Shown: one piece after another, positions 1,161 through 19,192 of the stretch
How positions within the stretch are numbered: the first letter of the stretch is position 1
How the letters are laid out: the number at the start of each line of letters is the position of its first letter
From: a virus
Virus record (IMG/VR): IMGVR_UViG_3300031952_000150
Coordinates: 1-23,666 of that record
DNA length: 23,666 nucleotides
Direction: 5' to 3' (one strand)
Program-made: the position numbers and the translations under genes
Notes under the pieces: generated by a model
Databases searched by the model: none
What the model saw: the letters and a program-made list of their open reading frames with translations, nothing else
Told to the model about the DNA's origin: nothing

Positions 1161-1910
1161 ATGGGTATGACCGACTACATTGTTTACTATCGTGTGAGCA
1201 GTCCAAAACAGGACAAACGGAAGGGCAGCAAGATTCGTTTTACCGGTCTCGGTCTGGAAGCCCAACGGACGATGGTAGACCGATTCCCGAAGGAAGGCCC
1301 CATCCTCGCTACGTATACCGAGGTCGAGACCGGGAGACACAATAATCGTCCTGAACTGCAAAAGGCCCTGGCTCATGCGAAGGCCGTGGGAGCGACATTG
1401 CTCATTGCGAAGCTCGACCGGCTGGCCCGGAATGTCGCTTTCACGGCCAATCTCATGGATTCGGATGTTCCCTTTATCTGTTGTGACCATCCGAGTGCGA
1501 CCAGATTGACTCTACATATTCTGGCGGCCGTCGCCGAAGAGGAGTCCCGTCTCATTTCAGAAAGAACAAAAGCCGCTTTGGCTGAGGCGAAGAAACAGGG
1601 CGTGAAACTGGGAAGCGCCAGACCGGGGCATTGGGACGGAAAGGAACGCGGCTGGAAGAAGGCTGTGGCTGCGGCGACAGAAAAGAGACGCCGGGAGATG
1701 GCGAGCCAGTACGAGATTCTCATTCCCATGATCCGCGAGCAAAGAGAAGCCGGGCAGACGATGGCTCAAATCCGGGATTGGCTCAATGAACGGGGATTCA
1801 AGACTACCCGCAAGCTGCCATTTACCGAGGGGCGGGTGTGGTGCATCATCAATCGTTATCTTGGAAAGGAATATCTTGGGAAGTCCAAGAAACTGGGAGT
1901 CATGCGATGA
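1161..1910 (+). CDS. Small serine recombinase (resolvase/invertase family)
   Basis: The 249-residue protein has the resolvase-type catalytic core. YYRVSSPKQ at residues 9-17 holds the active-site arginine (R11) and nucleophilic serine (S13). KLDRLARN (84-91) supplies the second arginine pair, and [15 protein letters not shown] (126-140) is the start of the long dimer helix. The C-terminal part (about 185-235) contains [15 protein letters not shown] and [11 protein letters not shown], a helix-turn-helix of the recombinase type. It would cut and rejoin DNA through a phosphoserine intermediate. At this size it is closer to resolvases and invertases than to large serine integrases, so it may be the integrase of the element, a resolvase or an inverting enzyme. 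The start is ATG at 1161 or 1167, with no strong ribosome binding site. Its stop overlaps the next start (ATGA). Confidence 0.92.
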
Positions 1911-2215
1911 ACCCTAAGTATGTTTGTTTTGAGTGTGGTCGGCATTTATGGGGTGCCTCAAAGTGTCCAAAGTGTCAGACCTGCACGCTTGTTGGGCAAT
2001 ACTTTAAGACGCCGGGAACAAATCTGGCTTGGCAAGGTGCGAAAGAACTTGCTCAAATGGGTGAGATGTTCGAGGCAAAGAATCTTTCATTTATGCGAAT
2101 CCGCCGCTTTGTCAAGGCGATGGCATCTCCGGCTGTTCGGGAGTACCTGAAACTATGGCCGGTCTGGTATCGGCATTTTGAGTATTTTGTCACACACCCG
2201 GAGGAGACGCCATGA
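1907..2215 (+). CDS. Small zinc-ribbon protein
   Basis: This 102-residue protein starts at the ATG of the ATGA overlap with the recombinase stop. The N-terminus has CFECG at residues 7-11 and then CPKCQTC, a four-cysteine zinc ribbon. The rest is predicted helical, with aromatic residues near the C-terminus ([12 protein letters not shown]). I do not recognise the family. Its coupling to the recombinase and to the deaminase that follows places it in the same operon. A DNA- or protein-binding accessory role is possible, but that is inference. Confidence 0.75.
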
Positions 2216-2676
2216 AACCCTATGACTGGATTCAAATTGCGATCAAGGATGCCAGCCAGAGTCCGGGCGGGCCGTTCGGAGCAATTATCATCAAAGATGA
2301 CAAATTGGTTGCCCGAGCCACCAATCTGGTTGTCCCGAACCGTGACCCGACCGCCCATGCCGAGATCAATGCGATTCGGGCCGCCTGTCAGATTCTCGAA
2401 ACATACAACCTGCAAGGCTGCACACTATACAGCAGTTGCGAGCCGTGCCCGATGTGTCTGGCCGCCATCCTGTGGGCAAACGTGAGCGAGTTGTACTTTG
2501 CGGCCACGCGGAAAGATGCCAGTTCCATTGGATTTCAGGACGGCGCACTCCACGATCTTTTCCGAATCAAGCCGAGAACGAAGTGGCCGCTTCCGACAAA
2601 TCCACAGTGGCCGAGTTGGCGGGCAAGAAATGAGGCTGTCGCCATGATGCGAAATTGGAAGGGAGAGACATACTGA
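2212..2676 (+). CDS. GuaD-like guanine/nucleoside deaminase
   Basis: This is a 154-residue member of the zinc-dependent cytidine deaminase superfamily. GGPFGAIIIKD at residues 19-29 is the substrate-pocket strand. TAHAE (47-51) supplies the zinc-ligand H49 and proton shuttle E51, and CEPCPMC (76-82) supplies C79 and C82. The overall sequence, including DPTAHAE, LYSSCEPCPMCLAAI and the C-terminal PSWRARNEA segment, is closest to bacterial guanine deaminases (about 156 residues) rather than dCMP or cytidine deaminases. Guanine deaminase converts guanine to xanthine. A tRNA-adenosine-deaminase-like activity cannot be excluded. It overlaps its upstream neighbour by 4 bases and its downstream neighbour by 1 base, and a second deaminase lies two genes on. 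Confidence 0.85.
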   Translation: MKPYDWIQIAIKDASQSPGGPFGAIIIKDDKLVARATNLVVPNRDPTAHAEINAIRAACQILETYNLQGCTLYSSCEPCPMCLAAILWANVSELYFAATRKDASSIGFQDGALHDLFRIKPRTKWPLPTNPQWPSWRARNEAVAMMRNWKGETY

Positions 2677-3164
2677 TGTATCCAATCTATCATGTCAAGG
2701 TACGTTGGTCCGAACGGTATCCGCCCGAGACGGCGGCGCACAACATGCGTGCGTCTGAGTTGCCTGCGGGTCGATTTTGGAATGGCAGTAGTTGGGATAC
2801 AATGGAACGTGAAGAAACGGACGTTGTTGAACGGCTGTTGCGGGATTGGTGGCCGGAGTATTCCAAGAAACTCTTAGAACCGGCCGACCTGACGCTTATC
2901 GTCGAGTTGCGTTGTCGAGATACTTGGTGCTCGGGCTGGTTTTCGCATTGGACCTTTGATACAGGCCAATCAGATCAAGAAGTGTTGGACAGTTTCCGGG
3001 AGTACGTGGATCGTATTCAATACTCTGACCGGCCAGAGGACGAAATTGGCAGTCTTCTCATGGGTGCCGAGGATGAATGGCGCTGGCATGGTGGTGAGCG
3101 AACCGAGGCACCTTGCCGGTGTCCGGTCTGCAAGGAACGTGGCGTGGTGAGGATCGACCATTGA
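2676..3164 (+). CDS. Hypothetical protein with C-terminal Cys pair
   Basis: This 162-residue protein starts at the ATG of a TGATG junction with the deaminase. It begins MYPIYHVKVRW and is rich in Trp and acidic residues. A CRCPVC cluster near the C-terminus could bind metal. DTWCSGWFSHWTF in the middle has further Cys and His residues. The family is unknown. It lies between two deaminase genes with overlaps at both ends, so it may act with them (inference). Confidence 0.7.
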   Translation: MYPIYHVKVRWSERYPPETAAHNMRASELPAGRFWNGSSWDTMEREETDVVERLLRDWWPEYSKKLLEPADLTLIVELRCRDTWCSGWFSHWTFDTGQSDQEVLDSFREYVDRIQYSDRPEDEIGSLLMGAEDEWRWHGGERTEAPCRCPVCKERGVVRIDH

Positions 3165-3508
3165 ACCGTGTAAACAGATACTTCCGACTTGCTAAAGTGG
3201 TTGCTGAGAAAGGTGACTCGAAAGACGCCCGGCGGCATTTTCGCTTTGGGGCGGTCGGTGTCCGAACGGATGGAGCCGTCGTCACGGCGAGCAATGTCCC
3301 GGTGCGCGGGCCGGAGAGACGCGCACATGCGGAAGTCCGCGTGACTCGGAAATTGAATTTTGCCTCGGTGGTCTATGTCGTCAGAATCCTACGAAATGGA
3401 CGACTGGCAAATGCCCGGCCGTGTTCCAAGTGCCAGGCGGCAATGCAACAGCGTGGCGTTATTTGTTACTACTCGATCAGTGAGAATGAATACGGAGTCC
3501 TGCAATGA
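3161..3508 (+). CDS. Second, short cytidine-deaminase-superfamily protein
   Basis: Starting from the TTG of a TTGA overlap with the preceding stop, this encodes 115 residues. FRFGAVGVRTDGAVV (27-41) matches the substrate-binding strand of deaminases. AHAE (55-58) gives the histidine ligand and catalytic glutamate, and PCSKC (87-91) gives the paired cysteine ligands. The zinc site is therefore complete in a very compact protein. It is not obviously similar to the GuaD-like protein at 2212. Short HAE/PCxxC proteins are known from phages, usually with untested substrates (free nucleotide, nucleic acid or tRNA). The TTG start is supported by the coupling pattern, but it is the least certain start in this operon. 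Confidence 0.78.
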   Translation: MNRVNRYFRLAKVVAEKGDSKDARRHFRFGAVGVRTDGAVVTASNVPVRGPERRAHAEVRVTRKLNFASVVYVVRILRNGRLANARPCSKCQAAMQQRGVICYYSISENEYGVLQ

Positions 3509-3711
3509 TTCTCTGCGTTGACGTGACAAAAGTGATTGTTCTGACTGGCCGGGGAGCCGATAAGGTTTCTCTTTTCACGACTGAGGATAGTTCGTTCTTC
3601 GGGGATGGACCCCTGGTGCTGAACTTTGCTGTGTCGGCTGGACAGGGATTCAAGTATGTAACCGAGGTTCTGAGGATTGATGACGAGTACGTGGAGGTCA
3701 TCAATGCCTAG
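3505..3711 (+). CDS. Small hypothetical protein
   Basis: This 68-residue protein overlaps the deaminase stop by 4 bases (ATGA). It begins MILCVDVTKVIVLTGRG, a pattern of beta strands. No catalytic motif or membrane segment is visible. The coupling on both sides supports it as a real gene. The function is unknown. Confidence 0.65.
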   Translation: MILCVDVTKVIVLTGRGADKVSLFTTEDSSFFGDGPLVLNFAVSAGQGFKYVTEVLRIDDEYVEVINA

Positions 3712-4072
3712 CAAGATTTGCCCGAGTTGCAATACAGCACATGGCGCACGCAAACTGGTCTGTGAGTGTGGCCACGACTTCGGCTGCAAGCACAAAACGA
3801 CGCCTGGTACGCATGACTTCCCCTACCCCGAGCCTGGAAAGTGGGTCTGGGTGTTGCCAAAAGGGATGCCGCCGATTCATTCACCCGACGTACCGCCTGG
3901 TCCGTTGTCGGCAAGCGTGGTCAAGGAACAAATTTCATACGAAGGACTTGGCTTTTGCGTCTATAGTCTCATTCCACCCGATCATGTTGCGGATGAACGC
4001 CTGCGGGAATTGTGGGTGGCGGCGCGGGCCGCGATGCGGGAAATCGTTGATTACCTGGATCAAGTAGAATGA
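3704..4072 (+). CDS. Zinc-finger hypothetical protein
   Basis: This encodes 122 residues from ATG 3704, inside the preceding gene. The N-terminus has CPSC, then CECGHDF and CKH, a Cys/His-rich zinc-binding module in the first 35 residues. The C-terminal half is helical and acidic. It overlaps the GIY-YIG endonuclease start by 4 bases. It is one of several small zinc-binding proteins in this operon. The function is unknown. Confidence 0.7.
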   Translation: MPSKICPSCNTAHGARKLVCECGHDFGCKHKTTPGTHDFPYPEPGKWVWVLPKGMPPIHSPDVPPGPLSASVVKEQISYEGLGFCVYSLIPPDHVADERLRELWVAARAAMREIVDYLDQVE

Positions 4073-4923
4073 ATGACTACTACGTCTACTGCTACTGGGA
4101 CGGCGATGTACCCATTTACATTGGGGCGGGCCGTGGGAGACGTGACGTGCGGCATGGTCGTTCAAGTGAACGAGGTTGTCGCTACTTTTGTTGGAGACTT
4201 TGTAGGATACGACAAGAAGGCCGCAAATCAAGTATGTGTCACTTGCTCGACAATCTCACACGTCAAGAATCACGTCGTTGGGAACGGTTCTTCATTGCCG
4301 CCATTGGTCGTGAAGATTTACAAACAGGCCCACTTTGTAATTTAACCGGTGGTGGCGATGGGGTGACAAATGTGTCGATTGCTACAAGACAACGGATGTC
4401 TGCGTCAAGGAAGGCAGTGATGATGCAGCCTGAAATGAAAGAACGATACTCCAAAGCAATAAAAGCGGCGAGTGCTCGACCGGAAGTGAAACAACGGCAG
4501 TCAGAGGCGGCGAAAGTGGCATTGGCGCGTCCAGGTGTGAAGCAGCAGAGGATTGCAGCACAACATGCAGCGTCGATTCGTCCTGATGTGAAACTGCGAC
4601 GATCAATGGCACAGAAAGTAGCTCACAATCGGCCCGAAGTGAAGCAGCACCAGTCTGAGGCGGCAAAAGCGGTTTCTGCTCGACCCGAAGTGAAACAACG
4701 AAGGTCTGAGGCTGCAAAAGCGGCAAATCGTTATAAACCACCTAAAGGGCGATTCAAGGGTGTGTTTCCAAAACGAAAGAAATGGTTTGCCCGAATTGAT
4801 CGTCAATATTTTGGTACTTTTGGGTCGCCAGAATTAGCCGCTCAAGCCTATAATGATGGGGTGGATAAATACTGGGGCGGTGATGGGTACAAGAATCAGA
4901 TTCCAGTTGTGGAGAAACAATGA
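4069..4923 (+). CDS. GIY-YIG homing endonuclease with NUMOD3-like repeats and AP2 domain
   Basis: The 284-residue protein has three parts. Residues 3-95 form a GIY-YIG nuclease: YYVYCY and IYIGAG give the signature pair, RRDVRHGR the conserved arginines, QESRRWERFF the metal-binding glutamate region, and CNLTGGGDG the C-terminal motif. Residues 120-221 are six near-identical 17-residue repeats of the RPEVKQRQSEAAK type, resembling an expanded NUMOD3 DNA-binding array. Residues about 228-270 form an AP2 DNA-binding domain (FKGVFPKRKKWFARI, FGTFGSPELAAQAY). It would nick or cut DNA to promote its own spread. No intron is evident, so it looks like a free-standing homing gene tucked between two coupled genes. 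Confidence 0.9.
   Translation: MNDYYVYCYWDGDVPIYIGAGRGRRDVRHGRSSERGCRYFCWRLCRIRQEGRKSSMCHLLDNLTRQESRRWERFFIAAIGREDLQTGPLCNLTGGGDGVTNVSIATRQRMSASRKAVMMQPEMKERYSKAIKAASARPEVKQRQSEAAKVALARPGVKQQRIAAQHAASIRPDVKLRRSMAQKVAHNRPEVKQHQSEAAKAVSARPEVKQRRSEAAKAANRYKPPKGRFKGVFPKRKKWFARIDRQYFGTFGSPELAAQAYNDGVDKYWGGDGYKNQIPVVEKQ
4426..4731 (+). repeat. Six tandem 51-bp coding repeats
   Basis: Six consecutive 17-codon units encode variants of RPEVKQxxSEAAKxxxx inside the GIY-YIG endonuclease. The units diverge at third positions and at several residues. They are therefore an established protein repeat rather than a very recent slip expansion, although units 2, 5 and 6 are close enough to allow recombination. 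Confidence 0.85.
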
Positions 4924-5567
4924 TCCCTGTATTTCTCTCGATAGATTTAGACTATTGGGCACATGGCCGGAAGCATCAGTGTGATGTTTTCTTCAAGAAA
5001 GTGTACGCATTGGGTCTTCCGATTCATGCTGCATACGAGCATGACCACTTGCTAGATGTGATAAATTCATCCCAATGCACAACCTTAATCAATGTGGATT
5101 TCCACTCGGATTTGTGCGACACGCCTGCTGAGGGCTGGGAGTTAAGCGATCTTAATGAGGGCACTTGGGGCAACTTTGTGTCATGGCGGGAGCGGGGCAC
5201 CTTCATCTGGCGGTATCCGAGTTCACTTTGCTTGAAGCCAGGCAACGGATATTGCCACAATGATGTCAACCCGTTCGAGAAACCGGCATCCGGGTGGCGT
5301 GAGGCACGAAAGCGACAGGGTGTGGCGGGCATCCCGTGGGACAGCATCAAGGCGGTTGGTGTGTGCTTGAGTCCTGACTGGATTGGTCGAACGTCCGTGA
5401 TTCGGGAGCCGATTGACCGACTTGGGATGCAGGATTGGCTTGATCTTGACGAGATCGGGTTGTGTTTATCCGGTGTGACCGTCAAAATCGTGCAATCACG
5501 CGAGAAAAACACACACAAAATGAGAAAAATGCTTGCAAAACGCCAGGGACGTGGTAGGATTAAGTAG
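4920..5567 (+). CDS. UPF0489 / ureohydrolase-like metal-binding protein
   Basis: This encodes 215 residues, coupled by ATGA to the endonuclease stop. SIDLDYW near residue 7 and LINVDFHSDL near residue 56 are acidic/histidine motifs that resemble the UPF0489 family. The DFHSD part also resembles the DAHxD metal-binding motif of arginase-type ureohydrolases. WGNFVSWRERG and the later VGVCLSPDWIG are further segments typical of such a fold. A hydrolase acting on guanidino or amide bonds is possible but unproven. The C-terminal tail is strongly basic (KMRKMLAKRQGRGRIK). The promoter for the next unit lies inside its last 12 codons. Confidence 0.55.
   Translation: MIPVFLSIDLDYWAHGRKHQCDVFFKKVYALGLPIHAAYEHDHLLDVINSSQCTTLINVDFHSDLCDTPAEGWELSDLNEGTWGNFVSWRERGTFIWRYPSSLCLKPGNGYCHNDVNPFEKPASGWREARKRQGVAGIPWDSIKAVGVCLSPDWIGRTSVIREPIDRLGMQDWLDLDEIGLCLSGVTVKIVQSREKNTHKMRKMLAKRQGRGRIK
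5533..5560 (+). promoter_or_regulatory. Promoter P1, 16-bp spacer
   Basis: TTGCAA (5533-5538) and TAGGAT (5555-5560) are separated by 16 bases and followed by TAAGTAG. The same layout precedes 8878 and 12585. It lies inside the end of the upstream gene, 21 bases before the ATG at 5581. An AAAGGGAG ribosome binding site lies between. Confidence 0.6.
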
Positions 5568-6375: not shown

Positions 6376-7520
6376 TCCCATCTTTCAATCTACCGCATCT
6401 GCAAGACGCAATCGAAGCGATGAATCGTCGTTGTCGTAAACTCGGTCAATCTGAGATCAGATTGACGACTGGCGCGACGATTTTCGAGGAACGTCGGCAT
6501 GAAACGGGTGTGAAGTACAAGATCGAGATGGTCAATGTTGATGTCGTCGGCGAATCTCCGGTTCTTGACGGTTGGAAACTGGTTGGCGTCATTGAGAGGA
6601 TCGAAGAAGAGAACATGGTTCGTTGTGTGCCGGGCGAGACGGTGCCATCTGATTATCGACTCGCCGATAATCACTGCGATCATTGCAAGACGAGTCGGAT
6701 GCGGAAAGAAGTCTTCGTACTCAGACACATTGATGGAAGGCACGTTCAGGTTGGCCGCCAGTGTATCGCCGACTTCCTTGGGCATGTCAGCGTTGAGTCG
6801 ATGATCGCGCGTGCCGAGTGGGAAATCTCAGCCGTGAGTGAAGTGCGGGATGCGTGCGACGAGAACTATGGGCATGTCGAAAGAACCATTCCACTTGGCT
6901 TGTTTGTCGCCACGACTGCTATCGTGATTAGGCGTCTCGGCTGGGTCAGCCGGAAAATGGCAGAGGATGCCACGCGGGAGACACTGACAACGGCCCATCT
7001 CGTGTGGCAGGTGCTCACGTCGAATGATAAGTTCACCAAGGAATTGGTTGAGAGCAATCAACTTTATGTTGAGTCACGCGATGAAGAATTGGCCGAGAGG
7101 GCAACAGTATGGGCCGCGAGTCTGCCGACTGATGAAGGTGACTACCTCTACAACCTGGGTGTGGCCTGCCGGTGTGCGAGTGTCACGTATCGAACGCGGG
7201 GCACCGTGGCAAGCGTGATTGCTGCCTATAACCGCGTCTTGGATTCGGGAAAGAAGACGCCTTGTGTCCACGTCGGCACAGTCGGGAAGAGAGAGGAATT
7301 TGCGGTCACGGTCAAGAAACTTAGCTACTTTGATTCCCAGTATGGGGTCAAAACGCTTGTGCGATTTGATGCTGCTGGCAACGTGTTGATATGGTGGGCC
7401 AGCGGTAACACGGATTGGCTGCATGAGGGTGACGAGTTGAAGATCGTCGGCACCGTTGCCAAGCACGACGACTACAAGGGCACACCACAAACCGTCTTGA
7501 AGCGCGTGAGGAAAGCATGA
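6369..7520 (+). CDS. Zinc-finger plus OB-fold-like nucleic-acid-binding protein
   Basis: This encodes 383 residues from ATG 6369, which overlaps the upstream stop by 7 bases. Residues 103-138 carry CDHC, a basic segment, then VGRQCIADFLG, a zinc-finger pattern common in phage proteins. The last 90 residues look like an OB-fold: VGTVGKREEFAVTVKKL, then LVRFDAAGNVLIWWAS, then GDELKIVGTVAKHDDYKGT. The GTVxKHxxYKGxxQTVLxR ending is typical of a widespread phage family. Binding of single-stranded DNA, or a replication accessory role, is inference from the fold. Its stop overlaps an HNH endonuclease start (ATGA). Confidence 0.7.
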   Translation: MLIPSFNLPHLQDAIEAMNRRCRKLGQSEIRLTTGATIFEERRHETGVKYKIEMVNVDVVGESPVLDGWKLVGVIERIEEENMVRCVPGETVPSDYRLADNHCDHCKTSRMRKEVFVLRHIDGRHVQVGRQCIADFLGHVSVESMIARAEWEISAVSEVRDACDENYGHVERTIPLGLFVATTAIVIRRLGWVSRKMAEDATRETLTTAHLVWQVLTSNDKFTKELVESNQLYVESRDEELAERATVWAASLPTDEGDYLYNLGVACRCASVTYRTRGTVASVIAAYNRVLDSGKKTPCVHVGTVGKREEFAVTVKKLSYFDSQYGVKTLVRFDAAGNVLIWWASGNTDWLHEGDELKIVGTVAKHDDYKGTPQTVLKRVRKA

Positions 7521-8224
7521 AGAAGGGCGACAGGTTTGGACGGTTGACTGTTGTTGTGACACCACAAGGACGCGCTGTTTCTGTGGTGTGTTCTTGTGGT
7601 GTCTGTAAAGTGGTTAATTGTGATAAACTTGTGACCGGGCATACTCGTTCATGTGGTTGTTTGAGAAATGAAAAGATAGGTGCTGTGAATCGGCGGCATT
7701 GTCTCACAGGTTCAAGACTTTATGCTTGCTGGAAAAGTATGAAGTACCGATGTAGCAATCCTCGGGCCGCCGGTTGGCATAATTATGGTGGCCGAGGGAT
7801 ATGTGTCTGTCGGGAATGGCAGTCATTTGACGTTTTTGCTTACTGGGCGTTTGCGAATGGATACAATGATGAATTAACATTGGATCGTAAACGGACAAAT
7901 CGAAATTATTGTCCATCAAATTGTCGGTGGGCAACATACAAGCAACAGTCCCAAAGCCGACGAAAACGACGTGGAATGTCAACACCCTATCTTGGTGTCT
8001 GTCGATGTGTGGGTGAGACTTTATATTCAGCCTATGCTAATCGAAAACGTCTTGGACGTTTTGTTGATTCTTTCTCAGCGGCTTGGGTTCGGGATGTATA
8101 CGTGAAACAACATAGTGATCCGTATGTCACACTCAATAGTTTGAGGGATCGACGTAAGAAACAAAAGCGAGTAAAATTGGAGCGGCGCGGAACTTTTGAT
8201 TGGGACATGCTTCTAAACAAGTAA
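7517..8224 (+). CDS. HNH homing endonuclease with AP2-like C-terminus
   Basis: The 235-residue protein begins MKKGDRFGRLTVV. Paired cysteines at C25/C27/C30 and C46/C48 form a zinc module (CSCGVC, SCGCL). RLYACWKSMKYRC and NYGGRGICVCREW are conserved blocks of phage HNH proteins. TLDRKRTNRNYCPSNCRWAT (residues 121-140) is the catalytic beta-beta-alpha metal segment. Residues 155-195 (TPYLGVCRC, SAYANRKRLGRFVDSFSAAW) resemble a divergent AP2 domain. The DNA looks AT-richer than its neighbours, which suggests separate acquisition. It is a relative of the gene at 13997. Confidence 0.88.
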   Translation: MKKGDRFGRLTVVVTPQGRAVSVVCSCGVCKVVNCDKLVTGHTRSCGCLRNEKIGAVNRRHCLTGSRLYACWKSMKYRCSNPRAAGWHNYGGRGICVCREWQSFDVFAYWAFANGYNDELTLDRKRTNRNYCPSNCRWATYKQQSQSRRKRRGMSTPYLGVCRCVGETLYSAYANRKRLGRFVDSFSAAWVRDVYVKQHSDPYVTLNSLRDRRKKQKRVKLERRGTFDWDMLLNK

Positions 8225-8231
8225 TACTGAT

Positions 8232-8247
8232 ATAATATGAGGAAGAC
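8232..8247 (+). promoter_or_regulatory. Extended -10 promoter and ribosome binding site before 8248
   Basis: TGATATAAT provides a consensus TATAAT with an extended -10 TG. No good -35 is visible upstream, which is allowed for extended -10 promoters. GAGGAAG immediately follows and serves as ribosome binding site for ATG 8248. If transcription starts at the usual distance from this -10, the leader would be very short or absent, so the promoter call is tentative. Confidence 0.45.
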
Positions 8248-8829
8248 ATGAAGTACACTTTGACTATTGACGATGCACAGGTTCGCACGATTCTTCACGC
8301 CTTGGACCTGTATTCGCGGATTGGTTGCGGCCAGTTTGATGAAATCCGGCGTCTCTTTCAGTTTGATTCGCGCAAGCGCGAGGGCGCGGATAAGGTGGAC
8401 ATTGGTTGGACGTTGGACGCAATCAAACAGTCATTACTCCCGCTTGAACGGGGCGTCGGTTACAGTATCAACAATCGTGACGTGCCACAAACCTATCGGA
8501 TGGCTTACGACATTCTCCAAGTGCTTCGGCATTGTAAAGCCTGGCACGATAGACCCGAGGGTGGCCCCTTTGTGCAATTCGATTCACCGTTCCAGACTGG
8601 CGACCATGAATTTTGTACCGTAGAGGCTGTGGTGGACACACGCAAGGAACTGGAAGGACTTCGGGTTTCGATGGCACGGGTCGCTCAAGTTGTCGGGGTT
8701 GAGACGACGGAGTGCCCCGTCTTGGACAAGGGCTACTCGGACCTGTGCAAGATGGCTGCACAGGATCGGGGTTGGAACAATCTTGCGGGCGCGATCTGTG
8801 AGAAGGCGGGCGAAAATCTCGACCGTTGA
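8248..8829 (+). CDS. Phage-type hypothetical protein
   Basis: This encodes 193 residues starting MKYTLTIDDAQVRTI with a GAGGAAG ribosome binding site. The opening, with LDLYSRIGCGQFDEI, is a pattern I associate with a common phage family of unknown function. TYRMAYDILQVLRH forms a second helical block. No catalytic residues are evident. It lies 23 bases after the HNH gene and just before promoter P2, so it may be a single-gene unit. Confidence 0.7.
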   Translation: MKYTLTIDDAQVRTILHALDLYSRIGCGQFDEIRRLFQFDSRKREGADKVDIGWTLDAIKQSLLPLERGVGYSINNRDVPQTYRMAYDILQVLRHCKAWHDRPEGGPFVQFDSPFQTGDHEFCTVEAVVDTRKELEGLRVSMARVAQVVGVETTECPVLDKGYSDLCKMAAQDRGWNNLAGAICEKAGENLDR

Positions 8830-8830
8830 C

Positions 8831-8858
8831 TTGACTTTCTACGCCTGTGATGTATAGT
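8831..8858 (+). promoter_or_regulatory. Promoter P2, 16-bp spacer
   Basis: TTGACT (8831-8836) and TATAGT (8853-8858) are separated by 16 bases and followed by TGAATAG. The ribosome binding site AGAAAGGGA and ATG 8878 follow within 20 bases. This is the best match to the shared promoter pattern in the window. Confidence 0.75.
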
Positions 8859-8877
8859 TGAATAGAAAGGGACACTG

Positions 8878-9462
8878 ATGTTAAGAGAACAGTGGTTACT
8901 GACGCTGATTGAAAAGTTGCGGCCGGTCTTTGAGGGGAAGGGTGCAACCCTACCTGCAAAGATTCGTGCGTCGTGCAGTTTTCCGTCGAAGATGGCTCTC
9001 GCCAACAAGAACAAGCGAATCGGCGAAGCGTGGAGCGACAAGAACAGCGAAGATCAGACTTTTGAGGTTTTTATCAGCCCGTTGCTGAAAGACCCTATCG
9101 AGGTCGGCGGTGTCGTGGTTCACGAGTTGGTTCACGTTGCAGTCGGTCTTGAGTGCGGTCATCGGGGCGCGTTCAAGCAACTGGCAAAGTCAGTCGGTCT
9201 TGAAGGCAAGATGACGGCTACGACGGTCGGTGACGAGTTGAAGATCAAACTTCAAGTGTTGACGGACGAGATCGGGGAGTATCCACATGCCCGGCTTGTC
9301 GCCAGCAATCGGCCAAAGACACAGACTACCCGCATGTTGAAAGTCACCTGCAAAGAGTGTGGATGCGTTGTTCGCATGACGCGCAAGTGGCTTGAAGAAG
9401 CAGGCGCACCGACTTGCGCTTGTGGCGGCGAGATGGTTGAGGGTGATGGCGATGCTGACTGA
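8878..9462 (+). CDS. SprT-like zinc metalloprotease domain protein
   Basis: The 194-residue protein has HELVH at residues 82-86 followed by LECGHRGAFKQLAKSVGL. That is the HExxH...GH zinc-protease arrangement of the SprT/Spartan family, with H95 as the likely third ligand. The C-terminus carries a zinc ribbon (CKECGC near 158-163 and CAC near 180-182), as in SprT proteins. Spartan-type enzymes cut proteins crosslinked to DNA. Bacterial SprT is poorly characterised. In a phage this could clear host or phage protein-DNA adducts or act on a host factor (inference). It is driven by promoter P2. Confidence 0.85.
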   Translation: MLREQWLLTLIEKLRPVFEGKGATLPAKIRASCSFPSKMALANKNKRIGEAWSDKNSEDQTFEVFISPLLKDPIEVGGVVVHELVHVAVGLECGHRGAFKQLAKSVGLEGKMTATTVGDELKIKLQVLTDEIGEYPHARLVASNRPKTQTTRMLKVTCKECGCVVRMTRKWLEEAGAPTCACGGEMVEGDGDAD

Positions 9463-9775
9463 CGCAAAGGTTGGGGACGTGTTATTGGTTGGTGGCAGTA
9501 ACCCGTATCTGTCCACAGTGACCAAGACAACTAAGACGTTAGTGTGTTGCGGGAGCACGAAGTTCAATCGACAAGGGAGGTTGACCCCGCGACAGAAATG
9601 GGACTATACGCACGCACGGATTGCAACAGAGATTGATGTTGCTCAAGTGAAGGAGGAAATCCACAGGCGGCAGTGCATCAATGTTATCCTGGCGAAGACT
9701 GGGAACATCAATGACTTGCGGGCGTTCAGTACGAAGAAACTCATTTGTTTGGTTGCAGTTTTGGAGAATGACTGA
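9452..9775 (+). CDS. Small beta-rich hypothetical protein
   Basis: This encodes 107 residues from ATG 9452, preferred over ATG 9446 because GAGGG lies at a good distance. It overlaps the SprT gene end. AKVGDVLLVGGSN and STVTKTTKTLVCC suggest a small beta-barrel, and the rest is helical. Similar GD-V-L barrel proteins occur in phages without known function. Confidence 0.65.
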   Translation: MLTDAKVGDVLLVGGSNPYLSTVTKTTKTLVCCGSTKFNRQGRLTPRQKWDYTHARIATEIDVAQVKEEIHRRQCINVILAKTGNINDLRAFSTKKLICLVAVLEND

Positions 9776-10038
9776 TGAATAGTCTGGTTGCTATCTTCCA
9801 GAAAGTGCTCATGGAGGCTCAGAAACTCCGGCCACAGAAATCCAAATGGATCGGTGACGAGTTGGAGTGGATCATCTACGAGCGCAAGATTATGCTGGAT
9901 GTGGTCAACGCTGAGCGTTTTCGTCGGGGTCTGCCAGCCGTGGTGGACGTGGGCAAGGCAGAACGATGTGCGATGGGGCATATCGACTACACACAGAAGT
10001 TCGCGCTGTATTGCGCGGAGTTGGCGGTGCAACCATGA
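9775..10038 (+). CDS. Small phage hypothetical protein
   Basis: This 87-residue protein starts within the upstream TGATG junction and ends in an ATGA overlap. It is predicted mostly helical (KSKWIGDELEWIIYERKIML, then VNAERFRRGLP). No catalytic motif is seen. It is supported by coupling on both sides. Confidence 0.7.
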   Translation: MNSLVAIFQKVLMEAQKLRPQKSKWIGDELEWIIYERKIMLDVVNAERFRRGLPAVVDVGKAERCAMGHIDYTQKFALYCAELAVQP

Positions 10039-10220
10039 TTATCCGGCCGACCGAAGTGCATGAGAACTGGGACAAGGCATTGATGGGTGTCTTGCAGACC
10101 GCCAAGGATTTGGGCATTGAGTGCAACTGCAAGTTGTCGTCGCAGTGGCTCGTCAAGATCGACGGCAACGAGCGGGAAACTTTCCTGGCATTAGCACGCG
10201 AGGCGGCAAATGCTTCATAG
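10035..10220 (+). CDS. Small hypothetical protein
   Basis: This encodes 61 residues starting MIIRPTEVHENWDK from the ATGA overlap. Two cysteines (CNC) precede SSQWLVKIDGNERETF. The predicted helix-strand layout suggests a small domain. The function is unknown. Confidence 0.6.
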   Translation: MIIRPTEVHENWDKALMGVLQTAKDLGIECNCKLSSQWLVKIDGNERETFLALAREAANAS

Positions 10221-10494
10221 TGAAGACTTGCAAGGCCGCTCGAAGCAGTGGATTGCTAACCGACTCGGCCAGAAGGTTGAGACCTACGCCGCCGGAATCG
10301 GTACACTGGTCATCATCAAAGATGGCGGGTGGGCGATTTGCGTGCGGCTGCAATGCACTCACGGCTGCAAGCGCACGCACACTGTCTACCTGCGGCGTGG
10401 TTGCGGCGGCCCGGATCATTATGCACACAACTTCAAGGGCGAGTACGTCGCCGATCTACGGGACCAGGTATTCAACTGTGGCAACCACGCATGA
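10210..10494 (+). CDS. Small Cys/His-rich protein
   Basis: This 94-residue protein overlaps the upstream gene by 11 bases. CTHGCKRTHTVYLRRGCGG in the middle carries Cys and His residues that could bind zinc. GTLVIIKDGGWAICVRL forms a preceding hairpin. The function is unknown. Confidence 0.65.
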   Translation: MLHSEDLQGRSKQWIANRLGQKVETYAAGIGTLVIIKDGGWAICVRLQCTHGCKRTHTVYLRRGCGGPDHYAHNFKGEYVADLRDQVFNCGNHA

Positions 10495-10627
10495 ACGATT
10501 GGTGAAGGAAGCCGAGGCGGCGATCAGCCGACTCCATGCTGATACTTCGGTCTCACGGGAGCAAACGTTGGACTCGTTGGAGAACGTGCGGGAGTTGATC
10601 CTTGACTTGATTCGAGACTTGAAATGA
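10478..10627 (+). CDS. Short coiled-coil phage protein (GTG start)
   Basis: This encodes 49 residues in the frame that ends ATGA-coupled to the next gene. The likely start is GTG 10478, giving a 17-base overlap with the gene before it. HADTSVSREQTLDSLENVRE and the following ELILDLIRDL form a pattern I associate with many short phage proteins. The remainder is an amphipathic helix, probably a dimeric coiled coil. The start is uncertain. Confidence 0.6.
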   Translation: MATTHERLVKEAEAAISRLHADTSVSREQTLDSLENVRELILDLIRDLK

Positions 10628-11151
10628 AGATCGAACGGTGGAAGGATGTTCCGGGTTACGAGGGTTTGTATCAGGTCTCAGACAAGGGACGTGTTCGCAG
10701 TGTTGATAGGGTCGTTGAATACGTTGACGGGCGTGTTCCATTCTTGGCCGGACGCATTTTACGTCAACGAATGGCTGGGTCGCGTCGGGATTATGCTGTG
10801 GTCAATTTGTGGCGAGGCAAACAACGGCGCACACGGTATGTTCACGATTTGGTACTTTCGGCGTTTGTAGGCTTGAAACCAATAGGTAAAGAGGTTTGCC
10901 ACGGGCCGCAAGGGCAGGGTGATAACCATTTGCGGAATCTTTCCTATGGGACACATTCACAGAATATGCGTGATTGTCGTCGAGATGGGACGGGTATAAA
11001 TAAACCCGTCCGCCGTTCGGACGGGAAGGAGTATGATAGCATTGATGAAGCAGCAAGAGACATAGGCGCTTGTCCGCAGAATATCACTCACGTACTTCAT
11101 GGCCGCCTGAAACAATGTAAGGGGTTTACTTGGGAGTTCATCAATGACTAA
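10624..11151 (+). CDS. NUMOD4-HNH-NUMOD1 homing endonuclease
   Basis: The 175-residue protein has three modules. NUMOD4 covers residues 5-50, with ERWKDVPGYEGLYQVSD and GRVRSVDR. An HNH nuclease covers about 73-116, with YVHDLVLSAFVG, VCHGPQGQGDNHLRNLSYGT and HSQNMRDC. A NUMOD1 DNA-binding tail covers 131-172 (DSIDEAARDIG, HGRLKQCKGFTW). It is intact by motif and would act as a site-specific DNA nicking or cutting enzyme for its own spread. It is a different HNH lineage from the genes at 7517 and 13997. It overlaps both neighbours, by 4 and 8 bases. Confidence 0.92.
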   Translation: MKIERWKDVPGYEGLYQVSDKGRVRSVDRVVEYVDGRVPFLAGRILRQRMAGSRRDYAVVNLWRGKQRRTRYVHDLVLSAFVGLKPIGKEVCHGPQGQGDNHLRNLSYGTHSQNMRDCRRDGTGINKPVRRSDGKEYDSIDEAARDIGACPQNITHVLHGRLKQCKGFTWEFIND

Positions 11152-12037
11152 GATTTGTTATGTTCCGAAGTCGTTTCGTGCGGTCGCGTTGGAACGCATC
11201 GCTCAAGCCAACAAGATTATTGTTGAGTACCAGGCACAAGGATTCAAGTTGACTTTACGCCAACTTTTTTACCAATTTGTTTCGAGAGACTTGATTCCCA
11301 ACACCGTGCAATCGTACAAGGGTCTTGGTGAGATCATCAACGATGGTCGTTTGGCGGGTTTGATTGACTGGGATGCGATTGAAGACCGCACACGGAACTT
11401 ACGTGGTTTGTCACATTGGTCCAGTCCACGCAACATCATACGTGCTTGTGCGAATCAGTACACCGAGGATTTGTGGGCCGGTCAAGAAAATTATGTGGAA
11501 GTTTTCATTGAGAAGGACGCTTTGATCGGTGTGATTGAAGGCGTCTGTACTCAGATGGATGTACCATACTTTTCTTGTCGTGGATATGTGAGCCAGAGTG
11601 AGATGTGGGGAGCATCTCAACGCCTGATTGGGCGCGAAGAGGCGGGCAAACGGACGATCATCATTCATCTTGGCGACCACGACCCAAGTGGTATCGACAT
11701 GTCGCGCGACATCCAGGATCGCTTGAATCTGTTTGGTTCGACGGTCTCTGTCAGACGCATTGCGTTGAACTTCGATCAGATTGAGAATTTGCCACCGAAT
11801 CCTGCCAAAGTCACGGACTCCCGCTACGAGGGATACCGGGCGTTGTATGGTGACGAGTCGTTCGAGTTGGATGCTTTGGAACCGCGCGTCATTGTTGCCT
11901 TGATTCAGGACAACATTGACGACTTGATCGACACTGATCTGTGGGAGGCGGCAGTCGCCCGACAACAACTCGGACGCGATCAATTGGAGAAGGTGTCAAA
12001 ACGATGGGATGATGTAACGGAGTTTCTAAATGGCTGA
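11144..12037 (+). CDS. TOPRIM-domain protein, Spo11/Topo VI-A-like
   Basis: In this 297-residue protein the N-terminal part (about 34-85) has LTLRQLFYQFVSRDLIPN, then SYKGLGEIINDGRLAGLI. This resembles the winged-helix part of Topo VI-A/Spo11, where a tyrosine (here Y43) is catalytic. The TOPRIM part has EVFIEKDAL (E123) and HLGDHDPSGIDM (D178 and D180), the acidic metal-binding triad. PPNPAKVTDSRYEGY and FELDALEP are blocks common in phage homologues of unknown function. A DNA cleavage/strand-passage role, or a nuclease role, is plausible. The large protein at 12585 has GHKL-like motifs and could be a partner. Confidence 0.72.
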   Translation: MTKICYVPKSFRAVALERIAQANKIIVEYQAQGFKLTLRQLFYQFVSRDLIPNTVQSYKGLGEIINDGRLAGLIDWDAIEDRTRNLRGLSHWSSPRNIIRACANQYTEDLWAGQENYVEVFIEKDALIGVIEGVCTQMDVPYFSCRGYVSQSEMWGASQRLIGREEAGKRTIIIHLGDHDPSGIDMSRDIQDRLNLFGSTVSVRRIALNFDQIENLPPNPAKVTDSRYEGYRALYGDESFELDALEPRVIVALIQDNIDDLIDTDLWEAAVARQQLGRDQLEKVSKRWDDVTEFLNG

Positions 12038-12233
12038 CGTGCCTAAGATGCGCTGCAAGAAGCGAGACGGTGAGTGGTGGATACTCGGTGTGCCTGAGAT
12101 GGACCCCGAAGGTTGTGGTCCTTACGGCACGAAGGCGGACGCAGAAGATGACATGCACGGCATGGAGCGGTTTTATGAACATTATGACGAACCGGGTTAC
12201 TTTACAGTGGACCCGCCACGGGAGAAACAATGA
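12030..12233 (+). CDS. Small acidic hypothetical protein
   Basis: This 67-residue protein overlaps the TOPRIM gene by 8 bases and is ATGA-coupled to the next. RCKKRDGEWWILGVP and then GPYGTKADAEDDMHG match the style of small phage proteins that follow replication genes. It has no catalytic motif. Confidence 0.7.
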   Translation: MADVPKMRCKKRDGEWWILGVPEMDPEGCGPYGTKADAEDDMHGMERFYEHYDEPGYFTVDPPREKQ

Positions 12234-12526
12234 GTCCAGTTGAAATTCAAGTTGGCGTGACATACGTGAATCGTGGGGCCGGGCGCACGCAGCGCACCGT
12301 TCTGGCGATTGGTGACGAGCATCGGCCGCCGCATTGGCTCGGGGCGTGGGGGACCAAACCGCCGGATGAACCGGGCGTCCTTTTCGAGCAGAAGGGGAAA
12401 CAGTACACCCTCTACCTCTCGTCTTTTGCCCAGTGGGCAAAGCGGCCGGTGGAGTGCGATCATCCGTGGCATCGGAATCCTGGCCTGATTACGGATTGCC
12501 CTGGGTGCGGGGCAAAATTGATTTGA
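12230..12526 (+). CDS. Small zinc-ribbon protein
   Basis: This encodes 98 residues. VEIQVGVTYVNRG and TVLAIGDEHRPP are beta strands. The tail has CDHPWHRN and CPGCGA, a likely zinc-binding site. The TTGACT of promoter P3 overlaps its stop codon. The function is unknown. Confidence 0.65.
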   Translation: MSPVEIQVGVTYVNRGAGRTQRTVLAIGDEHRPPHWLGAWGTKPPDEPGVLFEQKGKQYTLYLSSFAQWAKRPVECDHPWHRNPGLITDCPGCGAKLI

Positions 12527-12550
12527 CTTCTCCGAAACACATGGTATGAT
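12523..12550 (+). promoter_or_regulatory. Promoter P3, 16-bp spacer
   Basis: TTGACT (12523-12528) and TATGAT (12545-12550) are 16 bases apart and followed by TGAGTAG, matching P2 almost base for base in the core elements. The gene at 12585 follows, with GGAG about 10 bases before its ATG. Confidence 0.75.
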
Positions 12551-12584
12551 TGAGTAGGTTCAAGAACAAACCGGAGAACAAACG

Positions 12585-14000
12585 ATGTATCTGATGGTCC
12601 AAAATCCTGGGATTGCGTGTGTCGAGGGTTTCATATTACTGGGTGTTAGCACAACCCGTGACTGTGGAGTATCCGGTACAATCGGACAATTCGGCAGCGG
12701 GGCGAAGCACGCCATCAACACGTTGCTTCGGGCTGGGTTGACGGTGACGATTTACTGCGGTAAGACGAAGTTGGACTTCCAGACGCGCGATGAAGTGATT
12801 GACGATGGCCTGGTGAAGACGCCGATCAAACGAGTGTACTGTAAGCTGGGTGGCACCAGTACCCGGACGGTTGATACTGGTTGGGTCTTGGACTTTGGGG
12901 CACTCGACTGGACGAACCTGGCGATGGCCTTGCGGGAGTTTGTCAGCAACGCCATCGACCGAACGATCCGCGAGAAGGGCGACATCGGACCAGCCATATT
13001 GAGTGAGGATTTGCGAGTGTCCTTGGTTGATGAACCACGGGCACGCGACGGCTACACGCGAGTCTACGTGCAAGTCAATGAAGACGTGCAACGCTATTAT
13101 GGTGAACTGCCTCGGCGGTTCTTGCATTTTTCGTCTGATCCTTCGCAAGTCAAGAAGTCGATTCTGCCGAAGACCAACCGTAATATCGGGGACGGTCAGA
13201 CAGCGATGATCTACCGCGAGGGCGTCTTGGTGCGCGAGGTTGGCGAGTGCAAGAAGCGATCTTTGTTCGACTACAATTTCCGGGCGTCAGAGTTGCACAT
13301 CGACGAGAGTCGCAACAGTAGTGAGTACGAGGTCAAGGCGGCTTGTTCCCGACTCATGGCCGGGGCTGATTCGGGTCTCTTGGCGGCCGTTTTCAAGAGT
13401 CTGACGGATGGTGAAGAGACGTTCGAGGCTGAGTTGGACCCTTACTACATCTGCCCGTCGTGGCAGACACCGAAACCCGAACAGAAGAAAGCCTGGCAGC
13501 AAGCCTGGCAGGTAACGGCTGGGGACGCCGTACTGGTGCGTGATGTGGGGCAGATTGACTTCGTGCAACGCAAGGGACGCCCGGCCGCTGTGGTCAAGGC
13601 CCCTGGTTGGGCTGAGGTCGCTGAACGCTTCGAGTTGCCGACTGCCAAGCGCCTTCTCTCTGAGAACGAACAGAAGGGCCGCGAGATTCTGCCCGCGACC
13701 GACTATGCTCAGCACGCCGTTGACATGGCGTGGGGCTGGTTGGAAGGTTTGAATCTGACAAACGGCAAAACGAAACCGCCGGTGGGTTGTTTCCGAGATA
13801 TTATGGATGCAGGCAGCCGAGTGTTTGGGTTCTGTGACAGCACAGGAGTCTACCTGGCGGACGACCACGCGAGCGGCATGAGCAAGACGCTGGTGAAGAC
13901 GGCCCTTGAAGAGTGTGTGCATTGGTGTACAAAAGCGACAGATTGTAGTCGGGATTTTCAAGACTTTTTACTGCGGATGGTGGTGGAGATTGCATTGTGA
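12585..14000 (+). CDS. Large protein with permuted GHKL-ATPase-like motifs
   Basis: In this 471-residue protein, GTIGQFGSGAKHAINTLLR (residues 31-49) resembles the glycine-rich ATP-lid box of GHKL ATPases. LREFVSNAID (116-125) matches the N-box (E118, N122, D125). In Hsp90, gyrase B and Topo VI-B the N-box comes first, so the order here is reversed, as in a circular permutation. The middle (DSRNSSEYEVKAACSRLM, residues about 250-270) is helical. The tail has KTALEECVHWCTKATDCSRDFQDF, which looks conserved in phage relatives. It could be an ATPase acting with the TOPRIM protein at 11144. The assignment rests on motifs only. An HNH gene is coupled to its stop. Confidence 0.55.
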   Translation: MYLMVQNPGIACVEGFILLGVSTTRDCGVSGTIGQFGSGAKHAINTLLRAGLTVTIYCGKTKLDFQTRDEVIDDGLVKTPIKRVYCKLGGTSTRTVDTGWVLDFGALDWTNLAMALREFVSNAIDRTIREKGDIGPAILSEDLRVSLVDEPRARDGYTRVYVQVNEDVQRYYGELPRRFLHFSSDPSQVKKSILPKTNRNIGDGQTAMIYREGVLVREVGECKKRSLFDYNFRASELHIDESRNSSEYEVKAACSRLMAGADSGLLAAVFKSLTDGEETFEAELDPYYICPSWQTPKPEQKKAWQQAWQVTAGDAVLVRDVGQIDFVQRKGRPAAVVKAPGWAEVAERFELPTAKRLLSENEQKGREILPATDYAQHAVDMAWGWLEGLNLTNGKTKPPVGCFRDIMDAGSRVFGFCDSTGVYLADDHASGMSKTLVKTALEECVHWCTKATDCSRDFQDFLLRMVVEIAL

Positions 14001-14503
14001 CGCAAGGCGACCAGTTTGGACGTTTGACCGTGCTTGCTAAACCCTATTGGGTTCCAGGTGTTCACTATAAAGTGAAAGTTCGGTGTGCGTGTGGTGTGGT
14101 TAAAGACGTGTGGGCAAGTGACTTGCGGTGTGGGAAGATTGTTTCATGTGGCGGTTTGGCGTGCCGACGATTGGGTAAGACAACTCGTACACATGGTCGG
14201 TCGCACACAAAGTTGTATCGACTTTGGCAAGATATGTTCACACGTTGCTATAATCCAAACTTTAAGCAGTTTAAGGATTATGGCGGCCGTGGAATAAGGG
14301 TCGCTAAAGTGTGGTGGGATTTCGTGTCATTTTATCAATGGGCGATGGCTAATGGATACGTGGAAAGCAAATTCCTGTTGGATCACATCAATAATGACGG
14401 GGATTACAAACCATCAAATTGTCGGTGGGCGACACGTTCACAATCAAATAAGAATCGTCGGAGTAACGGACTTTTAGGAACTAAACGTTCACGGGGTCAG
14501 TAG
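13997..14503 (+). CDS. HNH homing endonuclease (GTG start)
   Basis: This 168-residue protein starts at the GTG of a GTGA overlap. It opens MTQGDQFGRLTVL, like the HNH protein at 7517. Cysteines at C30, C32, C51 and C56 form the zinc module. YRLWQDMFTRCYNP and DYGGRGIRVAKVWWDF are the conserved central blocks. LLDHINNDGDYKPSNCRWAT (127-146) is the HNH core, with H130 and N141. It lacks the AP2-like tail of its relative. Its stop codon lies inside the tRNA-like element that follows. Confidence 0.9.
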   Translation: MTQGDQFGRLTVLAKPYWVPGVHYKVKVRCACGVVKDVWASDLRCGKIVSCGGLACRRLGKTTRTHGRSHTKLYRLWQDMFTRCYNPNFKQFKDYGGRGIRVAKVWWDFVSFYQWAMANGYVESKFLLDHINNDGDYKPSNCRWATRSQSNKNRRSNGLLGTKRSRGQ

Positions 14504-14563
14504 CCCAATGTAGAGGCGCGCAGACAATGCAGTCCAGTGTGAGTTCGAGTCTCACCTGACCCC
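14494..14563 (+). tRNA. tRNA-like element, degenerate anticodon arm (Cys-like)
   Basis: GGGTCAG (14494-14500) pairs perfectly with CTGACCC (14556-14562), and a G-C pair (14493 with 14563) can extend it to 8 bp. The D-arm is GCC/GGC with TAGCCCAA-type sequence. The T-arm is perfect: GTGAG, TTCGAGT, CTCAC at 14539-14555. The anticodon arm is poor: only GAC/GTC (14523-14525 with 14532-14534) pairs, around a six-base loop AATGCA. If T14528 is position 33, the anticodon would be GCA (Cys). No CCA is encoded. It overlaps the HNH stop by 10 bases. It may be a decayed or atypical phage tRNA. Confidence 0.5.
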
Positions 14564-14577
14564 TTTCTTGAAAGAAA
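14564..14577 (+). repeat. Short hairpin before 14581
   Basis: TTTCTTGAAAGAAA can fold as a short AT hairpin between the tRNA-like element and the next ATG. It is too weak for a confident terminator call and also carries the only purine-rich segment before the start. Confidence 0.35.
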
Positions 14578-14580
14578 CCA

Positions 14581-14901
14581 ATGACACCCGCCCAAGAACT
14601 ACTTGAGTCAATCAAAGCGAAACGGGCCGAACAAGCGAAGTTGCTTGCCGAGTTGGACCTGTGGGCGGCGGTGCAGGCGCAGGGAATTGACATCAGTACC
14701 GTGGCGACCTTTGGGTTCAAGCCCGAGTGGCTGACGCGAATTGAGCGGTTGCAACGTGACAATGCTATGCGGGCGCGGCGGCCGGACCCATTTGACGGCC
14801 CGCGTGATGTCAATGGGCATTATGCGTGCATGGTATACAACTTTGTGCGGCACAAGGATGGGACAACCACGAGACTTCAACCTTCACTGAGAGCACCATA
14901 A
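14581..14901 (+). CDS. Small helical hypothetical protein
   Basis: In this 106-residue protein an N-terminal amphipathic helix (TPAQELLESIKAKRAEQAKL) suggests a coiled coil. RIERLQRDNAMRARR is basic. The start has only a weak AAAGAAA ribosome binding site. It overlaps the next gene at TAATG. The function is unknown. Confidence 0.6.
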   Translation: MTPAQELLESIKAKRAEQAKLLAELDLWAAVQAQGIDISTVATFGFKPEWLTRIERLQRDNAMRARRPDPFDGPRDVNGHYACMVYNFVRHKDGTTTRLQPSLRAP

Positions 14902-15206
14902 TGGATACGATACGAGATGCGGTAGCCCGCCACAATAATCTGCAAGGCGTGAAACGGGTTCAGGATTTGCGCCGTTACCTGCGTCAACGGATGGATTTGG
15001 AGACACAGGAACGCCATGACCGATGGCGGTTAGGTTGCCGTATTGTGGCCGCGAGCATCGCGTTGTTGGTGTGGTGTGCTGGATACCCGACGACGGCTCT
15101 TTTCGTTGGTGTCTTGATTTATGCCAGCGGGTATAGTGCTGTGGACCCATATCGGTTGGCGGTACGGCGCTGGCAGGCTGAGTTGGACGAGGAGTTATGC
15201 CGGTGA
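14901..15206 (+). CDS. Small two-pass membrane protein
   Basis: This encodes 101 residues. After a basic helical N-terminus (RRYLRQRMDLETQERHDRWR), two hydrophobic stretches follow: CRIVAASIALLVWCAGY and ALFVGVLIYASGY, separated by a short turn. A charged C-terminus ends DEELCR. The layout would fit a hairpin-like membrane protein. A holin role is conceivable but unsupported by location. Confidence 0.6.
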   Translation: MDTIRDAVARHNNLQGVKRVQDLRRYLRQRMDLETQERHDRWRLGCRIVAASIALLVWCAGYPTTALFVGVLIYASGYSAVDPYRLAVRRWQAELDEELCR

Positions 15207-15433
15207 GAGTCTATTCGGCTTTCTACAAAGACGATCATTCTGAGATTATCTTTCGTTTCGTGCCGCGTGGGGACGTTCGGAAGCGTTTGCCACTGGGCAC
15301 CCGTGTCCATGTGGATGGGCACAGTACCCTTGGCCGTCTTGACGGCGGGGACGAGTTCGAGCACGCTTACTTTGAGTTGGGCGGCCGGATCATCGTGGTT
15401 CAAGGCTTTGACCGCGATACTCAGTGCGTGTAA
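15197..15433 (+). CDS. Small beta-rich hypothetical protein
   Basis: This encodes 78 residues from ATG 15197, overlapping the membrane protein gene by 10 bases. IIFRFVPRGDVRKRLP and GTRVHVDGHST form strands. It is the last gene before the structured 15434-15567 intergenic region. The function is unknown. Confidence 0.6.
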   Translation: MPVRVYSAFYKDDHSEIIFRFVPRGDVRKRLPLGTRVHVDGHSTLGRLDGGDEFEHAYFELGGRIIVVQGFDRDTQCV

Positions 15434-15447
15434 ACGCATCTTCTTTT

Positions 15448-15487
15448 GCCATCTCTTAACCCATTAGATGGGTATTTCTTGGATGGC
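15448..15487 (+). terminator. Nested hairpin, possible terminator or leader structure
   Basis: ACCCAT and ATGGGT (15459-15473) form a tight inner stem with a TAG loop, followed by ATTTCTT. An outer pair, GCCATC (15448-15453) with GATGGC (15482-15487), can enclose it. The T run is short, so termination would be weak. The position, between one gene cluster and promoter P4, fits a boundary. Confidence 0.4.
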
Positions 15488-15526
15488 GTATAAACCAGCG
15501 CGATTTTGCTAGATTCGATGCAGGTT

Positions 15527-15554
15527 TTGACGCTTTTGGCCGATATTGTATGTA
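15527..15554 (+). promoter_or_regulatory. Promoter P4, 16-bp spacer
   Basis: TTGACG (15527-15532) and TATGTA (15549-15554) are 16 bases apart, as in P1-P3. GAGAGG follows directly and serves as ribosome binding site, leaving almost no leader before GTG 15568. The -10 is weaker than in P2 and P3. Confidence 0.5.
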
Positions 15555-15567
15555 GAGAGGATTATGT

Positions 15568-16137: not shown

Positions 16138-16140
16138 AGA

Positions 16141-16353
16141 ATGTCATTGAATCCGGTTTGGTGTGAGATTTGTACCATCCATCCGGCAATGTTCAATGAG
16201 CGACGTTGTGAGGATTGTTGGGCATCCGATCAAGCTGTGAGTGATAAAAGGCGTGTTGCCAACATCAATACACTGGTTCAATCGAGTCGAGTGACGAATG
16301 ATCTTTCGATACCGCCCACAACTCGCAAGCATCGACCAACTCGCTCCGGGTGA
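16141..16353 (+). CDS. Small zinc-finger protein
   Basis: This 70-residue protein starts three bases after the upstream stop. WCEICTIHPAMFNERRCEDCW in the first 27 residues gives two CxxC pairs. The tail is basic. The next gene starts inside it, 56 bases before its end, which is a large overlap for this window. The end of the frame may therefore be less constrained. Confidence 0.5.
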   Translation: MSLNPVWCEICTIHPAMFNERRCEDCWASDQAVSDKRRVANINTLVQSSRVTNDLSIPPTTRKHRPTRSG

Positions 16354-17948: not shown

Positions 17949-17978
17949 CAGTTAAACTCCTAACAAAGAGGAAAACCC

Positions 17979-18665: not shown

Positions 18666-18731
18666 TCCACTGCTGCCGGTCCCGTGTCTCCACGTTCCTT
18701 TCAACTGTCCGAAACAAACTGAGGTACAAAC

Positions 18732-19142: not shown

Positions 19143-19160
19143 GCGACTCAAAGCATCTTC

Positions 19161-19188: not shown

Positions 19189-19192
19189 GTTC

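Follow-up and report, generated by a model that had tools for sequence, protein, structure and literature searches.

Two different deaminases within a run of overlapping phage genes, probably a hypervariable accessory block

Two different deaminases lie in one run of overlapping phage genes, a combination seen only here among the records searched. Do they form a functional unit, or are they separate acquisitions that happen to share a locus? The DNA analysed (the window) is the whole of an IMG/VR virus record, 23,666 bases long. Its right end carries a terminase-like gene, which matches phage large-terminase genes, and a gene that we take to be portal-like. Guanine deaminase, the kind to which the first enzyme is closest, offers no obvious benefit to a DNA-building virus in degrading guanine, and it is rarely reported in phages: our literature searches yielded just a passing mention, for predicted cyanobacterial prophages (PMC5177637). 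The viral family of the second enzyme has no experimentally tested function that we found and no close relative that we found in sampled bacterial genomes; one biochemical assay of this enzyme would provide an annotation for its many relatives in algal viruses and large phages.

Nine genes follow one another on the plus strand from 1161 to 5567, and all eight of their junctions overlap, by 1-8 bases. Elsewhere in the window, 7 of 21 junctions overlap (p = 0.0015, one-sided Fisher test, for gene models partly chosen by the analyst). A sequence-only reading of this DNA had described an operon at 1907-4072 in which two different deaminases are interleaved with small zinc-binding proteins. All of those genes were found in place, with overlaps of 4, 1, 4, 4 and 8 bases in order from zinc-ribbon-like protein A through zinc-ribbon-like protein B, and the run proved to extend on both sides of them. 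Each frame of the run had the best codon score among the six, using codon use trained on conserved genes, and homologues elsewhere also confirmed the gene status of the GuaD-like deaminase, the 162-aa protein and the second deaminase. Searches of the window for tRNA genes and Rfam families gave no match.

The first gene of the run encodes a serine recombinase (1161-1910; resolvase N-terminal domain, Pfam PF00239, E 2.9e-25) whose homologues are found at the equivalent position in related phages. Upstream of it were observed two tRNA T-arm-like repeats, GAATTAGGGGTCRAATCCC, at 603-638 and 1048-1083 (445 bases apart), and four copies of TCTTGCAGGT, at 131-140, 439-448, 1003-1012 and 1095-1104. 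They might act as sites of recombination or have a regulatory role.

A chimeric assembly was rejected as an explanation, the recombinase, p407, HNH and sprT genes keeping the same order in related phages. A second metagenome contig (L049, IMGVR_UViG_3300032164_000058) is 99.99% identical over window positions 7463-23666; it stops just inside the variable region, before the deaminase cluster, and so gives no direct confirmation of the left part of the window.

The GuaD-like deaminase (2212-2676, 154 aa) was called complete in the sequence-only reading, and all of the zinc, guanine-site and C-terminal Tyr residues checked are indeed kept. It matches Pfam PF00383 with 83.8 bits. In the PDB it is matched best by guanine deaminase of B. 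subtilis (118 bits, E 2.9e-33), while plant guanosine deaminase scores 94 bits and TadA 73; against the TadA equivalog model NF008113 it reaches 66.8 bits, the cut-off being 150. In an alignment with the B. subtilis enzyme and six viral relatives, the protein shows the HAE zinc/acid motif and PCxxC, and the key residues are kept throughout the relatives. Its zinc and catalytic residues H49, E51, C79 and C82 align with B. subtilis H53, E55, C83 and C86, and N38, W88 and D110 correspond to Asn42, Trp92 and Asp114, which serve in the guanine pocket of the B. subtilis enzyme; F108 is likewise kept. Tyr154, the final residue, is invariant in all relatives aligned. The B. subtilis row of this alignment agrees with the chain from the PDB search over residues 13-119; its terminal Tyr is presumed. 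In the homologous plant enzyme GSDA, the active site is capped again by the terminal Tyr185, whose free carboxylate is important (PMC9739398).

Guanine deamination is the likely predicted activity of this protein, and the bit scores (118 versus 94) suggest guanine rather than guanosine as the substrate. A 360 kb phage contig offers a setting for such a gene: there (L005:3385-5857), GuaD lies directly 3' of a ThyX-family gene, and the group also holds a dCMP-deaminase-like gene on the upstream side and a NUDIX gene on the downstream side, an arrangement that supports nucleotide metabolism as the context of GuaD. Other recognised nucleotide-synthesis genes were not found in the window, a 23.7 kb fragment.

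The second deaminase (3161-3508, TTG start) is minimal at 115 aa and carries HAE and PCxxC. It had been read as a deaminase distinct from the first; it passes Pfam PF00383 (35.1 bits, cut-off 25), and its AlphaFold2 model (pLDDT 90.7) has the deaminase fold. A scan with the single sequence returned no relatives in the viral or bacterial collections. A two-sequence profile recovered eight other viral contigs, seven of them 157-485 kb in size, and PF00383 matched all nine members of the resulting family with E 0.01 or better. The profile found none in sampled bacterial genome contigs, which were scanned with a single peptide pattern, and the bacterial side consisted of two weak matches on Streptomyces plasmids. 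Among predicted viral structures the closest was a deaminase of an uncultured tailed phage (BFVD A0A6J5RT59, TM-score 0.84, 34% identity), followed by an unnamed 153-aa protein and then by Feldmannia virus FirrV-1-A29 (27% identity). The protein thus belongs to a viral family of deaminases that has no name as yet.

Where hairpin-type enzymes have a tight turn, a helix is present in guanine, dCMP and tRNA deaminases; in the phage dCMP deaminases of T4 and S-TIM5 this helix connects final strands that run parallel. The model of the second deaminase has predicted strands at 101-107 and 110-114 with two residues between, forming a C-terminal beta-hairpin; because of these two final strands and their tight turn, it matches the hairpin division of deaminases as defined in PMC7901873. 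The top Foldseek matches were blasticidin-S and cytidine deaminases. Structural realignment gave Z 12.8 to cytidine deaminase (108 residues, 2.5 A), then 10.9 to blasticidin-S deaminase, 10.7 to guanine deaminase, 10.5 to dCMP deaminase (both human and S-TIM5, below cytidine deaminase) and 10.2 to TadA. The first zinc ligand is His56, and it is His in all relatives. The ribose-binding residues conserved in cytidine deaminase (CDA) are Asn42, Glu44, Ala46 and Tyr48 (PMC9897663). In the second-deaminase family Asn alone is kept, and the Glu44 column holds Pro, Ala, Arg or Tyr. Membership in the homotetrameric cytidine deaminases is out by sequence, given the His first ligand and one of four ribose-binding residues. 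As its substrate, some small cytosine compound is our best guess.

Between the two deaminases lies a 162-aa protein (2676-3164), with homologues on 21 viral contigs (loci L020-L040). An alignment of this phage family shows a near-invariant C-terminal motif, LMGAEDxWRW...CRCxxC...IxH. Its model (pLDDT 86) gave no confident match to known structures. The first ~80 residues of the model resemble PurS-like ferredoxin folds weakly (Z 5.6), and because the match is weak no claim about purine synthesis is made.

The proposal that zinc-ribbon proteins flank the deaminases held on one side. Zinc-ribbon-like protein A (1907-2215, 102 aa, CxxC-x9-CxxC) is directly 5' of GuaD, but protein B (3704-4072, CxxC...CxC) is parted from the second deaminase by a 68-aa protein (3505-3711, an open frame with coding-like codon use). 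Neither ribbon has a Pfam match, and the zinc-binding label is drawn from CxxC motifs. Protein A also had no PHROGs match, and no viral relative of it was found; the C-terminal part of protein B (residues 73-119) is matched by an unnamed phage family, PHROG 17752 (E 1.5e-6). The 68-aa protein and the 215-aa protein that ends the run (4920-5567, an open frame) had no family match in Pfam or PHROGs. The best explanation of the 162-aa protein and the zinc ribbons is that they are separate phage genes and not partners of the deaminases.

Overlapping zinc ribbon B is a GIY-YIG/AP2-like homing endonuclease gene (4069-4923), with matches to PHROG 314 (homing endonuclease, E 2.1e-8) and PHROG 99 (HNH endonuclease, E 2.3e-6). 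Five homing-endonuclease-like genes (GIY-YIG/AP2, HNH) were noted in the window, this one and those at 7517-8224, 10624-11151, 13997-14503 and 17077-17409, most of which are presumably of this kind. Most overlap their neighbours, by 4-19 bases, and the five may shuffle adjoining cargo.

In order to determine whether the cluster is a unit, its distribution was compared across records. Homologues of GuaD, the second deaminase or the 162-aa protein are encoded in 34 records, which are fragments or of uncertain completeness and were scanned with peptide patterns that miss distant relatives, and none of the 34 has two of the three genes. Weak cross-matches between the two deaminases were counted here as superfamily similarity and not as homologue pairs. 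A conserved 471-aa protein served to find relatives of the window phage, and about ten distinct ones (duplicate contigs removed) carry a sprT-like gene. Their common gene order is recombinase, a variable stretch, sprT, the 471-aa protein and terminase, and several reach the recombinase; no PF00383 gene is present anywhere in the records of these roughly ten relatives. The 162-aa protein is near terS in four relative contigs (L020/L021, L022, L023) and, where the 471-aa gene is covered, lies between that gene and terS. The nearest second deaminase, 54% identical, is on the opposite strand of a more distant relative (L012, a 14.7 kb fragment), adjoining the small terminase gene, and this fragment has no GuaD.

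The gene order of the window, which the sequence-only reading had suggested seeking in other phages, was therefore not found in the records examined. With no other record examined holding two of the three genes, and relatives lacking the deaminases, the view of the deaminases and their neighbours as a functional unit fails. The separate distributions point to three genes with separate histories, which meet only in the window among everything searched. The cluster lies in a hypervariable interval, which holds different genes in different phages.

A further protein is encoded upstream of sprT in one relative (L058:1899-2651, IMGVR_UViG_3300032070_000001). It has 250 aa, made up of two repeats that are 37% identical; no recombinase match was found on this stretch. 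Each repeat aligns with the C-terminal part of the GuaD profile near the zinc motif (hhalign probability 92, 45 columns), and the protein scores 19.1 bits against this profile, the maximum in 20,000 shuffles being 10.8. The repeats have EPGTDV or EPDVRT where GuaD has EPCPMC, and HAE is absent. No PDB match and no other viral relative of the tandem protein were found. As judged from its sequence, it may be a zinc-less deaminase relic, or pseudo-deaminase.

The reading that we favour, at a probability of roughly 0.6, is that the deaminases are independently acquired accessory genes in a co-transcribed hypervariable block, each acting alone on small-molecule nucleotide pools. The 54% identity of the nearest second deaminase, in a related phage, indicates that this gene may be older in the lineage than independent acquisition implies. 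A tailed phage would have gained the accessory block downstream of its serine recombinase, and polycistronic expression would supply both enzymes. The GuaD-like enzyme would hydrolyse guanine to xanthine and ammonia with a water on the zinc held by His49, Cys79 and Cys82; Glu51 would act as the proton shuttle, Asn38, Asp110 and Trp88 would line the guanine pocket, and Tyr154 would cap the site. By the same chemistry (His56, Cys88, Cys91, Glu58), the second enzyme would deaminate a small cytosine-type nucleoside or nucleotide. Each would separately drain or recycle one small metabolite, shifting the nucleotide pool of the infected cell. Guanine removal might benefit the phage through nitrogen release, by relieving guanine feedback on purine synthesis, or by clearing guanine from degraded host nucleic acid. 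Among the roles raised by the sequence-only reading, a predicted role in nucleotide pools or salvage is the likelier; neither the window nor the family searches gave any sign of the others, base modification and interference with defence signalling.

Overlapping gene runs can share a function, and a unique cluster can be a recent, working pair. The deaminases might then serve one pathway, such as the stepwise conversion of purine and pyrimidine precursors for a modified base, or coordinated salvage. Their place in one overlapping run fits this, as does the 360 kb contig, where GuaD and a dCMP-deaminase-like gene sit in one nucleotide-gene group, and phage deaminases are known to produce modified bases, dU-DNA phages being an example (PMC12697855). 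However, the combination was found in no other record examined, no base-modification gene was recognised in the window, and the dU-DNA enzymes are of the dCMP deaminase family (PMC12697855), whereas the second deaminase is of the hairpin type. A working pair is accordingly considered unlikely.

Smaller still is the chance of a defence or counter-defence function, in which the deaminases would deplete a nucleotide or signal used by host immunity. The superfamily includes an anti-phage dCTP deaminase, and GuaD weakly matches the catalytic stretch of the PADLOC dCTPase model (E 1.4e-4 over 48 residues), but this match is confined to the shared zinc motif and reaches 17.6 bits against a 400-bit cut-off; the remaining genes of the block have no defence-model match above noise. 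Similarly doubtful is a reading in which the second deaminase's family, in large phages and algal giant viruses, has a new substrate, and in which the lineage repeatedly recruits deaminase-fold proteins upstream of sprT, the zinc-less tandem relic included, to serve one common end, for example to alter or sense nucleotide signals of the host. Least probable is editing of nucleic acid (tRNA, mRNA or DNA) by the second deaminase, or by both enzymes, in the manner of TadA-like or toxin-like deaminases: the family matches of GuaD include TadA, and the hairpin topology is common to the DNA-editing enzyme SsdA (PMC7901873), but GuaD is best matched to guanine deaminase and falls far under the TadA cut-off, and the second enzyme is nearest in fold to deaminases of free nucleosides and of blasticidin-S and carries no nucleic-acid-binding domain.

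The two enzymes were also compared with known systems. The GuaD-like protein is 39% identical to B. subtilis GuaD (CDA superfamily, PDB 1WKQ/1TIY) and has in common with it the zinc and catalytic residues, the guanine-site Asn/Trp/Asp and the C-terminal Tyr; it differs in being phage-encoded within a mixed accessory run and in having Gln in place of B. subtilis D113. Unlike the anti-phage dCTP deaminase, it does not match the defence model over its full length. The second deaminase shares its fold with homotetrameric CDA and blasticidin-S deaminase, down to the hairpin made by the final two strands. It has 115 aa and is about 16-18% identical to CDA, and its first zinc ligand is His, whereas the CDA ligands are three Cys (C53, C86 and C89 in B. 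subtilis). Phage dCMP deaminases (T4, S-TIM5) have the same superfamily and zinc chemistry with a weaker structural match (Z 10.5). The second deaminase belongs with a group of unnamed CMP/dCMP-type deaminases found in algal viruses and large phages, and differs from them in its combination with GuaD, which was seen in no other record examined.
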